Virus record (IMG/VR): IMGVR_UViG_3300029999_000002
Location: 1 to 64,000 of that record
Source: a virus
Length of the DNA: 64,000 nucleotides
Reading direction: 5' to 3' (one strand)
Below the pieces are notes generated by a model, which made no database searches, was not told where the DNA came from, and was given only the letters and a program-made list of their open reading frames with translations. The first letter of the stretch is position 1. Each line of letters begins with the position of its first letter. A program made the translations under genes and the position numbers. This document shows, piece after piece, positions 8,147 through 15,221 of this stretch.

Positions 8147-8378
8147 CAGTTTTGTAAATAGGATGGAAACCATCTTCTAGATCCGGGTACACACGGATCT
8201 CGACGCCGGCCAGCACATCAGTGAGCAGCGCTATGCGTGTAGGTGTGATCCTCTTGAGTTCGGCCCAGGTCTTCTCATTGCACCTGTAATAGAGGGGATA
8301 GTGTGCGCGCTGAGTTAGAGCCATCACTATCTTCTCAACATGCGCCAGCGCCTCAAACGTTATCTCAGGGTCAATCAT
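8124..8378 (-). CDS. hypothetical protein downstream of RNase H
   Basis: An 84-residue, mixed alpha/beta protein without a recognised domain. It overlaps the RNase H gene by eight bases and so is co-transcribed with it. Its 3' end doubles as promoter sequence for the next leftward unit, which constrains its last residues. Confidence 0.65.
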   Translation of the reverse strand: MIDPEITFEALAHVEKIVMALTQRAHYPLYYRCNEKTWAELKRITPTRIALLTDVLAGVEIRVYPDLEDGFHPIYKTAIQENKP

Positions 8379-8832
8379 CTCGCCGCTTCCCTTTTAGGGA
8401 ACACACAATCCCATGTCGGTCCATCACACGATTGCACAGTGCGTCTGCCTTTGTGTTGTGTTCACGACGGAACCAAGTAAGTGTCGTAGGACAGACACTG
8501 CACAGCTTGTTGAATGCAGTATTAGCGGATAAGTAATAAGGGCGAAGGTCTACATCCCTCACCTGCCACCTCTGATTGATCTGCTCAACAATCAATTGGG
8601 AATCACTAAATATATTTATTTCATGTACCTTTTCTATGTCTTGCAGATGACATAGAGATATACATGCAGCTTCCAAAGCTCTATACTCAGCTTGGTTGTT
8701 TGTGCAGTGGGGCAGGAACCCAGAATGCTCATGAACACTGTCGTTTTCGTTTGTTAGCAACACAAATGCCCATGCGCCCGGACCCGGATTATCTCTGCAT
8801 CCACCATCTGTCTGTACAACTATTTTTTTCAC
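8371..8832 (-). CDS. rnhA: ribonuclease HI
   Basis: About 153 residues. QTDGGCRDNPGPGAWAFVL carries the first catalytic Asp; NNQAEYRALEAA carries the Glu; FSDSQL the second Asp; and HNTKADALCN the C-terminal Asp region. It removes RNA from RNA-DNA hybrids, such as primers made during phage replication. GTG 8832 is chosen because the domain begins directly after it; a TTG at 8889 would add 19 residues but lacks a ribosome binding site and overlaps the divergent promoter. Confidence 0.88.
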   Translation of the reverse strand: MKKIVVQTDGGCRDNPGPGAWAFVLLTNENDSVHEHSGFLPHCTNNQAEYRALEAACISLCHLQDIEKVHEINIFSDSQLIVEQINQRWQVRDVDLRPYYLSANTAFNKLCSVCPTTLTWFRREHNTKADALCNRVMDRHGIVCSLKGKRRDD

Positions 8833-9374: not shown

Positions 9375-9808
9375 GTCCCTGTGCTACCAAATCCACCAGT
9401 GCCCCGTGCACTGTCTTCCAGGGCCATAACTTCCTCAATGCTCTCACCCGTGAACACTTCGGTTGGGAGCATTTGTGCGATACGGTCTCCTGCCTTGATC
9501 GTGAATGCTATAGCATGGCTCGTCATGATGACCTTGAGCTCACCTGTGTATCCAGCATCGATGACGCCGGCCGATACGGTGACGCCCTTAGCTGCTATTG
9601 AAGATCGATCCTTCAGCAGCAACCCAAACGTTCGTGCATCTTGATGTGACAGATGGAATGAGGCAGACACACCTGTTCTTACAAACGCGCGAACGCCTGG
9701 TTGAAGGAACACATCCTCCAAAGCGTACAGATCAAATCCAAGATCCTTTCCAGGGTGTGCAACTGTGGGCAGAATTGCCCCATCTTCAAGCCGTTTTACT
9801 TTTAGCAT
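9371..9808 (-). CDS. dut: deoxyuridine triphosphatase (dUTPase)
   Basis: A 145-residue enzyme with all five trimeric dUTPase motifs in order: DLGFDLYA, DRSSIAAKG, GVIDAGYTGE, KAGDRIAQM and the P-loop-like RGTGGFGSTG at the C-terminus. It hydrolyses dUTP to dUMP, keeping uracil out of phage DNA and feeding dTTP synthesis. It is the last gene of the polymerase-sigma-dut operon and overlaps the sigma gene by seven bases. Confidence 0.95.
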   Translation of the reverse strand: MLKVKRLEDGAILPTVAHPGKDLGFDLYALEDVFLQPGVRAFVRTGVSASFHLSHQDARTFGLLLKDRSSIAAKGVTVSAGVIDAGYTGELKVIMTSHAIAFTIKAGDRIAQMLPTEVFTGESIEEVMALEDSARGTGGFGSTGT

Positions 9809-10392
9809 CTTTGTAGCTTCCTCACTTTGGTTCTCATGTACCTAACTCGTTCCTTCACCGCTGTCTCAGTGAGGCCCATTGTGCTACCGATCTGCTCATA
9901 GTCCAGTCCCTGCCGAATGTAGTTGCAAATCAGCAGGTCGTGCCCCTGAATGAAATCAGGAAGCTTTCGCATGTACTGAACAGGTTCATCCCGGTAGAGT
10001 GCAGGATTGTCGTCAATGAAGCCATCCTCTCCCTCGATCTGCAACGGAACCCGCTTTGACACTTCCTTTGTTGAACTACTTTGTGCATCAGCCCCATGTG
10101 TATAGCAAATACGATTTAACCAAGAGTAGAAAATACTACAATCCCCCTTGAATGACGGTAGCTTGCTCCACACGATTAGCACAATGTCTTGCGCAAAGTC
10201 TTCCGCTCCCTCTGCCAGGTCATCCATGTCAAACAACACCGAGGTCATCTTTCCTCTTGCGAACTCGGTGACAGCCTTAAACAGAACTCCTTCAGACCCC
10301 TCTTCCTTTGCGAGGTAGCTTGCAAATGCTTTGTCAATCTTTGCCCGATTTCTTTTATAACCAATCTCGCGCAACCTACTCACTTCTGCCAC
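9802..10392 (-). CDS. ECF-type sigma factor
   Basis: A 196-residue protein with the two-domain plan of extracytoplasmic-function sigma factors. Region 2 lies around AEDFAQDIVLIVWSKLPSF and the following YSWLNRICY; region 4 is the C-terminal helix-turn-helix (LDYEQIGSTMGLTETAVKER). It should direct host RNA polymerase to phage promoters. It is translated from the polymerase operon (13-base overlap). The duplicated CACACTT-N15-GGTCTA promoters at 13838 and 14441 are its best candidate targets. Confidence 0.85.
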   Translation of the reverse strand: MAEVSRLREIGYKRNRAKIDKAFASYLAKEEGSEGVLFKAVTEFARGKMTSVLFDMDDLAEGAEDFAQDIVLIVWSKLPSFKGDCSIFYSWLNRICYTHGADAQSSSTKEVSKRVPLQIEGEDGFIDDNPALYRDEPVQYMRKLPDFIQGHDLLICNYIRQGLDYEQIGSTMGLTETAVKERVRYMRTKVRKLQRC

Positions 10393-12874: not shown

Positions 12875-12920
12875 AGTATGGAGCAAGTCCTCACGCATGT
12901 CAAGGTTTTTTATACTGCAT
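12875..12920 (-). promoter_or_regulatory. ATRCAG-type promoter giving a leaderless polymerase transcript
   Basis: Minus strand: GATGCAG (box 12915-12920), 11 bases, TTGACA (12898-12903), 17 bases, CATACT (12875-12880). Only eight bases separate the -10 from the ATG, so transcription should begin at about the start codon. It controls polA, the ECF sigma gene and dut. Confidence 0.75.
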
Positions 12921-12934
12921 CAAGGGAGTGTCAA

Positions 12935-13237
12935 ATGGCAGAAGATTTCAATAACGTAAAGGTATGGATGGAAGGCAAGCTGAGGGATCGTGGGCTGAGC
13001 ACCAGTCGACTGACACACCTAACTGGATACAAGATTTCCAGTGCTTCAGTCTTCCGATGGTACAACGACACATTCCGGCCGACTGAGAACAATATGCAAT
13101 TGATTTGCGATACGCTCAACCGGGTACCGCTGGTGACAAACAGTGCCACTCCTAAGTTTCAGGAAGTTCCCCTAGCCGAGGGAATGGCACAATTCAGTAA
13201 GCGCCCATGGAAGAACCGTACTAAACAAACACGCTGA
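12935..13237 (+). CDS. helix-turn-helix DNA-binding protein
   Basis: A 100-residue protein. LSTSRLTHLTG and SSASVFRWYNDTFRPTENN look like the two helices of an XRE-type domain, followed by LQICDTL-like dimerisation helices and a basic C-terminus. GGGAG lies six bases before the ATG. It is divergent from polA, with its start 15 bases beyond the ATRCAG box, so it is well placed to control that promoter. Confidence 0.7.
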   Translation: MAEDFNNVKVWMEGKLRDRGLSTSRLTHLTGYKISSASVFRWYNDTFRPTENNMQLICDTLNRVPLVTNSATPKFQEVPLAEGMAQFSKRPWKNRTKQTR

Positions 13238-13721
13238 CCGTGTATTTCTCTCCAAGTACCAACAACTGCAGCATATCGACCTGAGTGTCACCAAGTTTGA
13301 AACCCCGGTCGGCGACGGGAGGGTTACCCCAGACAGCCAGCTGGTGTGTTTCATACATTGAACAAAACTTTGACTTGAGTTGGTCTGCGAAGATTGCGTC
13401 AAGTGTCGGCGCCCCATCCAGGAGATAGGACAGATCCCCGTCAATAATCTTTAGACCACCAAACTCATCCTCCACTGTAAAGCCCAGGAAAATATGTTCA
13501 TCAAAATGTGCCCGGAGGCTCTCTTTTGCAGAGGCGCATAGGGTAGTGTGAGATACGGTTGCATCACAACTACAGGAACACCGGGAGCAAAAGTGCAGAC
13601 AACAGATGCGGCATTGGTTGAGATCGTCCGGAAGAAACGAGTGGCATCCAGCACAGAAAGCAGATGCTAACGTTATTGTTCTTAGAGAGTTACCTATTTG
13701 CTCTGCAATTGATGGTTTAAT
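13221..13721 (-). CDS. Cys-rich putative zinc-binding protein, start uncertain
   Basis: The frame is open from 13811 to 13221 but has no ATG, GTG or TTG until 13475. The part upstream of that GTG encodes an ordered cysteine array: CAGC, nine or ten residues, CRICC, CSRC, CSC, typical of a zinc ribbon or RING-like fold, so translation probably starts further up. ATT at 13721 has GGGTG five bases before it. The C-terminal 85 residues (from EDEFGGLKIIDGD) look globular. It overlaps the convergent regulator by 17 bases. Confidence 0.5.
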   Translation of the reverse strand: MKPSIAEQIGNSLRTITLASAFCAGCHSFLPDDLNQCRICCLHFCSRCSCSCDATVSHTTLCASAKESLRAHFDEHIFLGFTVEDEFGGLKIIDGDLSYLLDGAPTLDAIFADQLKSKFCSMYETHQLAVWGNPPVADRGFKLGDTQVDMLQLLVLGEKYTVSVFV

Positions 13722-13809
13722 GGTTACACCCGAGGGAATGAATTGTGTGCAGCGAAAGTAACTAGATAGTACACTATTTAAATTCTCTGCATAGGGTTGC
13801 CCTGTGGAA

Positions 13810-13892
13810 AACTATTTTGCATCTATTTCACTACTACTTCACACTTGCCTCTTCAAAAAACGGTCTATGACTATAGAGGGATAAATAAGTTT
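13810..13892 (+). promoter_or_regulatory. duplicated promoter block, copy 1 (ECF-like)
   Basis: The block shares about 65 of 83 positions, with no gaps, with 14413-14495. Invariant parts are AACTATTTT, CTATTTC, TTCACACTT (13838-13846), an A-tract and CGGTCTATGACTATAGAGGG (13861-13880). CACACTT, 15 bases, GGTCTA has the form of an ECF sigma promoter. Transcription would begin around 13875-13880, exactly where the structured RNA starts. A sigma70 reading is poor. Confidence 0.7.
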
Positions 13893-14300
13893 GTTCCCTT
13901 CTTTGGCGACTTGAACACCAGTCGCGGATTCCTGAGACAGCCTCACAGATGCCGGAACTCTCCAGAGCGAGAAGGCGTGAGCAACCTGAAACCCAGATGA
14001 TCCCAATACCCTGACGTTTACGATCAGGTCCACCAGACAAAGGTGATGAGGCAGTTTGCCGGCTTTGTACCTGCATGACGGTACCGCATCGATGAGGCTC
14101 GCTTGGAGCTCCGCAACATTCGGTCATGCGTTAAGAGGGAGTGCATTCCTACAAAGGGGAATGGCTGCGTAATGACCGGGATAGCCAAGCTTAGATGGGA
14201 ATACCCATTCCGAAACCCCCTCCCTCTAATTGACAGCTAGGTCTTAACTAGGAAACAGTGTTGTTTACTTAATCTATAAACAATGATTGTAAACAACTTA
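13880..14300 (+). ncRNA. large structured RNA 1
   Basis: This stretch of about 420 bases has no supported gene but many perfect helices: GCGACT/AGTCGC (13906/13920), CCTGA/TCAGG (14010/14024), GTACC/GGTAC (14067/14080), CGGTCAT/ATGACCG (14121/14172), CATTCC/GGAATG (14144/14158) and ATGGG/CCCAT (14195/14204). TAGAGGG at 13874 can pair with CCCTCTA at 14222 and close the whole molecule; the latter can also pair with AGAGGGAG at 14134, crossing the 14121 helix as a pseudoknot. No known RNA family is recognised. Confidence 0.65.
14260..14297. repeat. inverted repeat with alternative pairing
   Basis: GTTGTTTAC (14260-14268) and GTAAACAAC (14289-14297) form a perfect nine-base inverted repeat. A second copy of the right arm core, TAAACAA at about 14277, can pair with TTGTTTA instead, giving a shorter hairpin. 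No T-tract follows, so it is not a classic terminator. It may end RNA 1, act as a switch, or bind a protein. AT-rich sequence with further short repeats follows. Confidence 0.55.
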
Positions 14301-14412
14301 GTAACATATTGTTAACTACGCGCGAGATAAAAATTTTGTAGATTTTCGCCAAGCGAGAGGCAGAAGAGGCAGAAAGTTTCTTGCATTGTCGGTGTTCCGC
14401 CCCGGCCCCGCG

Positions 14413-14495
14413 AACTATTTTCAAACTATTTCTTTCTAGATTCACACTTAGTTGTCAAAAAAACGGTCTATGACTATAGAGGGGTAATTAAGTTT
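14413..14495 (+). promoter_or_regulatory. duplicated promoter block, copy 2 (ECF-like)
   Basis: Aligns without gaps to 13810-13892 (offset 603). TTCACACTT lies at 14441-14449 and CGGTCTATGACTATAGAGGG at 14464-14483, with the same 15-base spacing between CACACTT and GGTCTA. It precedes structured RNA 2, and no terminator is visible before the late operon, so it is the best candidate late promoter. Confidence 0.7.
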
Positions 14496-14960
14496 TACCT
14501 TCCCGCGCATAGTATGCGCACCCAATAAATACAAATTTGACTTTGCGCGCTGCCATTGTGTTGGTCGGTTCACGACTCCAGGCGCGCGTTCCTATGTGAA
14601 GCCGAAATCCCCACTTCCGGGTGCAACCCTCGTTTCGTGGGTCAGTAGGGCTTTCCCGGTAGAAATCCGGCACATAGGTAAATTCCGAGAAACCCTTAGG
14701 GGATGAAGGTACAGAACGGCTTGATGGAGCTTTGAAGAGCCCTGCCGAGACAAGAAGCAACTCCCATGACACTACTCGACTGTACGAGTGGATCTCAGAG
14801 CCTTATGGTGTCTGACTAATGTGTCTTCTCGATTGACGAGACTCCCTCGGATGGGCTTCAACCCAAAGTGGAGCAAGCGGGGTTCATAGCCCTGCACCCG
14901 TTCACCTGCCATGTGTAGGAGGAATTGGACTGACGCTGCGCGCCGGTCTCAAACAGATGG
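14483..14960 (+). ncRNA. large structured RNA 2 / possible late-operon leader
   Basis: About 480 bases with dense helices: GCGCATA/TATGCGC (14505), GCGCGC/GCGCGC (14544/14582), CCTATGTG/CACATAGG (14591/14671) enclosing CCG/CGG, CCGGG/CCCGG (14617/14655) and ACCC/GGGT (14626/14639), then CTACTCG/CGAGTGG (14772/14785), TCTCG/CGAGA (about 14825/14835) and GCGGGG/CCCTGC (14877/14890). The nested order makes a branched fold likely. A 94-residue leftward frame across it has no family and is rejected. The 3' end is unclear; no terminator is seen before 15054. Confidence 0.65.
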
Positions 14961-15053
14961 GGCGTGGAAGTTTGATTACAAAGCATTGACTCCGCGCGAC
15001 ATGATTACTGCTCTGATGCGGATTATCCACGTAGCGCAAATCAGGAGGTTCCA

Positions 15054-15221
15054 ATGATCAATCCATTCAAACATACAGGCAAAGTAGTATCGGATGCGTA
15101 TAAGTCCGCCAATGGCAGTGACTGTTGCCCTGGTCTGTGTGTGGCAGCCACCACGGTATTTGTTCTACCTTTTGCAGTTCCCTACTCTCTGGTTAGTGCC
15201 TTCTTCAAGAAGTCTGAGTAG
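15054..15221 (+). CDS. small membrane protein before the packaging genes
   Basis: A 55-residue protein with a polar N-terminus (NPFKHTGKVVSDAYK) and one hydrophobic helix (about residues 29-51). AGGAGG lies five bases before the ATG, a very strong site. The stop TAG shares its G with the GTG of the HNH gene, so the two are coupled. It is the first gene of the rightward late unit. Function unknown. Confidence 0.7.
   Translation: MINPFKHTGKVVSDAYKSANGSDCCPGLCVAATTVFVLPFAVPYSLVSAFFKKSE

Follow-up and report, generated by a model that had tools for sequence, protein, structure and literature searches.

We found that one of two gene-free stretches lying ahead of the packaging genes of a virus contains, we are nearly certain, a conserved structured RNA domain. 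The window analysed is a stretch of 64,000 nucleotides from a virus record of 89,140 bp, and the domain, 88 nt long, is absent from Rfam and has a structure that is supported by paired changes. The best explanation, which we hold with moderate confidence, is that the interval is a late phage non-coding RNA region with dedicated promoters, and that its portable tRNA-like domain would act in trans. Transcription, promoter function, tRNA-like recognition and action in trans are what we infer from the sequence.

By comparison of DNA polymerases, the closest annotated relatives of the virus are the Tunturiibacter phages Tunturi_4 and Tunturi_3 (88 and 98 kb), and its host is therefore probably an acidobacterium, of the soil Acidobacteria. 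Leftward genes for RNase H, dUTPase, a sigma-like factor and DNA polymerase lie to the left of the interval. To its right are the rightward genes for a 55-aa ORF, HNH, TerS, TerL, portal, protease and capsid, the last three named by relatedness to terminase-linked loci. The preliminary description had placed the two stretches directly before the packaging genes, and indeed the 55-aa ORF, HNH, TerS and TerL genes come next. The features are as follows:

9802 to 10392, minus strand: sigma-70-like factor gene, which weakly matches regions 2 and 4
12878 to 13237, plus strand: Cro/C1-type HTH-like regulator gene, which also adjoins the interval in the relatives L062, L101 and Tunturi_4
13810 to 13892, plus strand: promoter-like block, copy 1 (83 nt), with the core AAAAAACGGTCTATGACTATAGAGGG at 13855-13880 and tandem CTATTT elements upstream
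13893 to 14412, plus strand: RNA1, a gene-free stretch and putative RNA, for which homologue searches gave no match
14413 to 14495, plus strand: promoter-like block, copy 2, with the core at 14458-14483 and a AACTATTTTCAAACTATTTC element that recurs before the late genes of the relative L101
14496 to 15053, plus strand: RNA2, a gene-free stretch extending as far as the ribosome-binding site that precedes the 55-aa ORF
14591 to 14678, plus strand: conserved RNA domain of RNA2, an 88-nt three-way junction, from the covariance model and the homologue in phage contig L190
15054 to 15221, plus strand: ORF of a predicted small membrane protein of 55 aa, with an L190 counterpart that is 73-74% identical and lies downstream of the homologous RNA

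On the minus strand, positions 13221-13690 carry a strong coding signal (20.8) and cysteine motifs, and this signal begins upstream of any ATG, GTG or TTG; L062:7425-7937(-), which is similarly placed and also has cysteine motifs, may be its counterpart.

The 83-nt repeat that had been described as gap-free with an offset of 603 is indeed so, with 65 of 83 positions identical (78%). Its 26-nt core, ACGGTCTATGACTATAGAGGG, has two exact copies in the window and two in the entire record, where none is expected, and a 21-mer of the core has no other occurrence in the 89,140 bp. Because the upstream half of the block contains CTATTT repeats and its AACTATTTTCAAACTATTT stretch recurs ahead of the late genes in the relative L101, a fair reading is that the block combines a regulator site with a promoter. 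The HTH-like regulator would then be a candidate for binding the block and the sigma-70-like factor a candidate for using it as a promoter. At the threshold of the tool, no consensus match to sigma-70 -35/-10 hexamers with 16-18 nt spacing was found on the plus strand of the blocks, and an exact scan of viral contigs with the promoter core gave no match. The likeness to a T7-type promoter is confined to ACTATAG, and the search for a PF00940-type single-subunit polymerase gave no match in the record, nor any in the control genomes. An element, TTGTTGATTC, recurs in the same orientation in the interval before the polymerase gene in four relatives, at L020:8776(-), L101:9782(-), L102:9535(-) and L179:8343(+).

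That no convincing gene follows either block, as stated earlier, is borne out by codon statistics, the best coding scores of the stretches being 5.2 and 5.7, below the 5% quantile of genic windows (11.7). Rfam returned nothing at E <= 5 over positions 13700-15100, and over the whole window at gathering score it returned one tRNA and no other family; positions 13893-14412 and 14496-15053 are unmatched, in agreement with the earlier remark that no known family is recognised. The many perfect helices of up to eight pairs that had been offered as evidence of two large structured RNAs are, however, at the level of chance in dinucleotide shuffles (96 observed vs 92, and 220 vs 207). An equally strong best helix was present in 101 of 200 shuffles of RNA1 and 92 of 200 of RNA2, and an equally good crossing pair in 74 and 147 of 200, respectively. 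RNA1 folds with a mildly low energy (MFE z of -2.4 to -2.75 at full length, -1.5 for the 5′ part) and RNA2 with an ordinary one (about -0.9 to -1.0), against a coding background with a mean z of -0.16 and a standard deviation of 1.05. The earlier claim of two large structured RNAs thus stands for the 88-nt domain of RNA2, while the helix evidence fails for both stretches. The pseudoknots proposed by eye were rejected: those of RNA1 (CGGUCAU/AUGACCG with AGAGGGAG/CUCCCUCU) are matched by shuffles, and that of RNA2 (AUCCCC/GGGGAU) is incompatible with the conserved P3.

The two RNAs had also been thought to have diverged behind a kept promoter. Their similarity ends about 25 nt past the block and is undetectable beyond, so RNA1 and RNA2 need not be related, and the comparisons gave no support for RNA2 as a paralogue of RNA1. 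No homologue of RNA1 was found in anything searched, and DNA homologue searches of phage and plasmid collections gave no match. RNA1 is probably a non-coding RNA; as a structured RNA it is unproven. One reading, possible though on the unlikely side, is that non-coding DNA with a regulatory role, or gene decay, accounts for RNA1 and for most of RNA2, leaving the 88-nt domain as the only functional RNA. The weak z-scores, the helices at chance level and the searches without a homologue for RNA1 and the rest of RNA2 are consistent with it, as is the equivalent 407-nt gap of Tunturi_3, which folds like shuffled sequence. On the other hand, RNA1 lies behind the same exactly kept 26-nt core as RNA2 and its full-length z is low.

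The decisive evidence for a structured RNA comes from comparing positions 14591-14678 with another phage; when folded alone, this segment gives a three-way junction as its minimum free energy structure. All of its elements are on the plus strand:

14591-14598 paired with 14671-14678: P1, an 8-bp acceptor-like stem
14599-14603 paired with 14649-14653: P2
Between P2 and P3: loop-E-like internal loop, GAAAUC/UCAGUA
14610-14614 paired with 14637-14641: P3
14656-14670: T-arm-like hairpin with a 7-nt loop

A homologue was found at L190:6684-6779; L190 is a phage contig from a Granulicella MAG and came from a TerL-alignment scan of bacterial genome contigs. The structure of the covariance model was taken from the fold of the window alone, without L190, whereas the segment ends were picked after L190 had been seen; the model scored this homologue at 48.3 bits (E = 2.6e-9, 38 loci). 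A sequence-only model of the same 88 nt scored it at 23.9 bits (E = 2.2e-5), and paired changes therefore carry about half of the signal. In the alignment of the two sequences, from which a 10-nt L190 insertion between P2 and the T-arm-like hairpin is omitted by hand, standard pairs occupy 43 of the 44 pair cells (97.7%). Both sides have changed in 9 of 22 pairs (five in P1, four in P2), which was equalled by 1 of 500 shuffles, and sliding the helix partners lowers pairing to 32-46%. The covariation check that the preliminary description had proposed is thereby passed for this part of RNA2. Window and L190 do not differ in the P3 stem or in the loop sequences GAAAUC and UCAGUAG.

The acceptor-like stem abuts the T-arm-like hairpin, with its 7-nt loop, in the minimum free energy structure of the window and, by hand alignment, in L190, where the minimum free energy structure of the segment alone is not the full junction. 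The L190 T-arm-like hairpin has one broken pair in the hand alignment, and the covariance-model alignment did not recover it. Judged by the known motif consensus, GAA facing AGUA would be a bulged-G (loop-E) signature, and the loops of the hairpin, UAGAAAU and UCGAACU, would fit the T-loop pattern UNNRANN. Speculatively, tRNA-binding factors might recognise the stack formed by the acceptor-like stem and the T-arm-like hairpin.

The surroundings of the domain differ in L190, where it sits in an intergenic gap of less than 240 nt that has a small ORF on one side and a lysozyme gene on the other. The terminase of L190 is about 3.2 kb away, and a hairpin resembling an intrinsic terminator, with a U-run, comes directly after the domain. 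This context bears on the possibility, raised in the preliminary description, that the stretches are a late leader: they would form the 5′ leader of the late packaging and structural operon, with the domain as a cis element in antitermination, RNA stability or translation of the 55-aa ORF. In the window, no terminator-like site lies between the blocks and the start of the 55-aa ORF, RNA2 ends at the AGGAGG of this ORF, and the ORF is common to the window and L190. However, in L190 the terminator-like hairpin comes after the domain, and about 1.2 kb, including the lysozyme gene, separate the domain from the 55-aa homologue downstream; L240 and L241 carry the ORF and lack the RNA domain. The leader thus appears rather unlikely to us as the main role; the same fold in two gene contexts and the L190 terminator-like hairpin favour an autonomous RNA over a leader of the packaging genes. 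Regulatory DNA or decayed genes in the remainder of the stretches can be combined either with this autonomous RNA or with a leader.

The L190 context also bears on a packaging RNA of the phi29 kind, a further earlier suggestion, for which the position upstream of TerS and TerL and the three-way junction could be cited. Since the L190 copy, between its small ORF and lysozyme gene, is not beside the terminase of that phage, and near relatives with a related TerL lack the domain, we regard this as highly improbable.

L190 represents the single independent homologue, L225 and L238 having the same sequence. When about 110 loci, 398 genomes of the family, 396 of the phylum and a further 22 records, with 20 related phages covered as whole records, were scanned with the covariance model, only L190 and these duplicates were found, which indicates that the domain is rare or fast-evolving. 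Near relatives from TerL- and polymerase-based searches lack RNA1 and RNA2. A covariance-model match in Tunturi_3 overlaps a tRNA and is due to chance, as are eight further matches of a relaxed RNA pattern scan, in all of which the pairing is absent.

Next, we considered the same interval in relatives. L062 keeps the order of polymerase, HTH gene, HNH, TerS and TerL and has tRNA-Asn and tRNA-Trp at the position of the RNAs. L105:7900-9370(-) is a 1.4-kb gene-poor stretch in which two tRNAs are embedded; it has a sigma-70-like promoter, and its end resembles a terminator. A 450-nt part folds strongly (z of -6.4), and Rfam gave no convincing match there besides tRNA. Two paralogous non-coding stretches at L020:6900-8190(-) have the common core GCGCCGAnnGAGUAAGUCGC and paired changes in a hairpin. 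Tunturi_3 (L179), a phage cultured on Tunturiibacter psychrotolerans X5P2, has the layout of the window, with a promoter-like 21-mer duplicated at 8213-8233 and 8661-8681 and a gene-free stretch of about 400 nt between the copies. No such RNA was found in the interval of L101 and L004. Near the same interval, a common hairpin occurs at L102:8762-8781(-), L103:4995-5017(-), L104:9314-9332(-) and L105:9235-9254(-). Its outer helix covaries in 7 of 8 pairs and is 100% paired, its inner helix differs too, and its loop contains CUCCUUU, which resembles the 16S anti-Shine-Dalgarno sequence. This hairpin, which is not in the window, is possibly a new RNA family. As the relatives L062, L105, L020 and Tunturi_3 have tRNAs or other RNAs there, the interval is a recurrent site of non-coding RNA with contents that vary by phage. 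The region between polymerase and late genes thus appears to be a hot spot for tRNAs, the 88-nt domain or another covarying hairpin.

Three further observations were made in phage contigs. An abiF RNA match above gathering score (41.2 vs 37 bits) lies beside the phage tRNAs at L062:8569-8604. Permuted tmRNA matches above Rfam gathering score were found in the phage contigs L106 (13320-13599) and L107 (13885-14159). In L004 (4853-7216) and L005, an insert of about 600 bp splits the TerL gene and carries an HNH-like ORF in a different frame; it is a candidate intron or intein that Rfam did not match.

Taken together, we propose that the interval, with leftward replication genes on one side and rightward late genes on the other, would be transcribed on the plus strand from the two dedicated promoter copies. 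The second transcript would carry at least one autonomous structured domain (14591-14678), most likely a trans-acting, tRNA-like phage RNA that lacks a D-arm; host proteins or the ribosome would recognise its acceptor/T-arm stack and its internal loop. The transcript may also continue by read-through as a leader of the packaging operon, because no terminator intervenes. More tentatively, and with considerable doubt, the domain might define a new class of tRNA-like phage RNA: portable, D-arm-less, with a third arm of loop-E-like character and a dedicated duplicated promoter, and acting in trans on host translation or tRNA processing late in the infection of Acidobacteriota. Our results thus provide an RNA domain outside Rfam, with paired-change support, in phages of a poorly studied phylum, and cultured relatives, the Tunturi phages on Tunturiibacter, make the role of such RNAs testable.

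Among known systems, GOLLD and ROOL are located close to tRNA islands (PMC12286853). The preliminary description had suggested this type, and the stretches could be members or distant relatives of these large multimerising phage RNAs, given their phage location, their size of 400-560 nt and the tRNA genes that relatives carry in this interval. The suggestion fails at the level of Rfam, where the covariance models of GOLLD (RF02032), ROOL and OLE are unmatched in the window, with nothing at E <= 5 in the interval; furthermore, RNA2 folds no better than shuffles and the domain recurs in the short L190 gap. We therefore consider it improbable: like GOLLD and ROOL, the RNAs would be phage-encoded non-coding RNAs of unknown function with tRNA genes near in related phages, whereas the conserved part here is about 90 nt. 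Rfam models of the group I intron and of other curated ribozymes are likewise unmatched. The phi29 packaging RNA forms a three-way junction and lies upstream of packaging genes. The window domain is alike in both respects and differs in that its homologue is unlinked to the terminase, the phage type is different and Rfam gives no match. ARAGORN and the Rfam models recognise neither a tRNA cloverleaf nor a tmRNA in the domain. mascRNA is not known to have a canonical D-arm. Compared with tRNA and with D-arm-less tRNA-like non-coding RNAs such as mascRNA/menRNA (PMC11693755), the window domain has no CCA after P1 and no anticodon arm, and carries a conserved loop-E-like internal loop; what it would share with them is a predicted acceptor-length stem that abuts a short hairpin with a 7-nt UNNRANN loop, together with a third arm.
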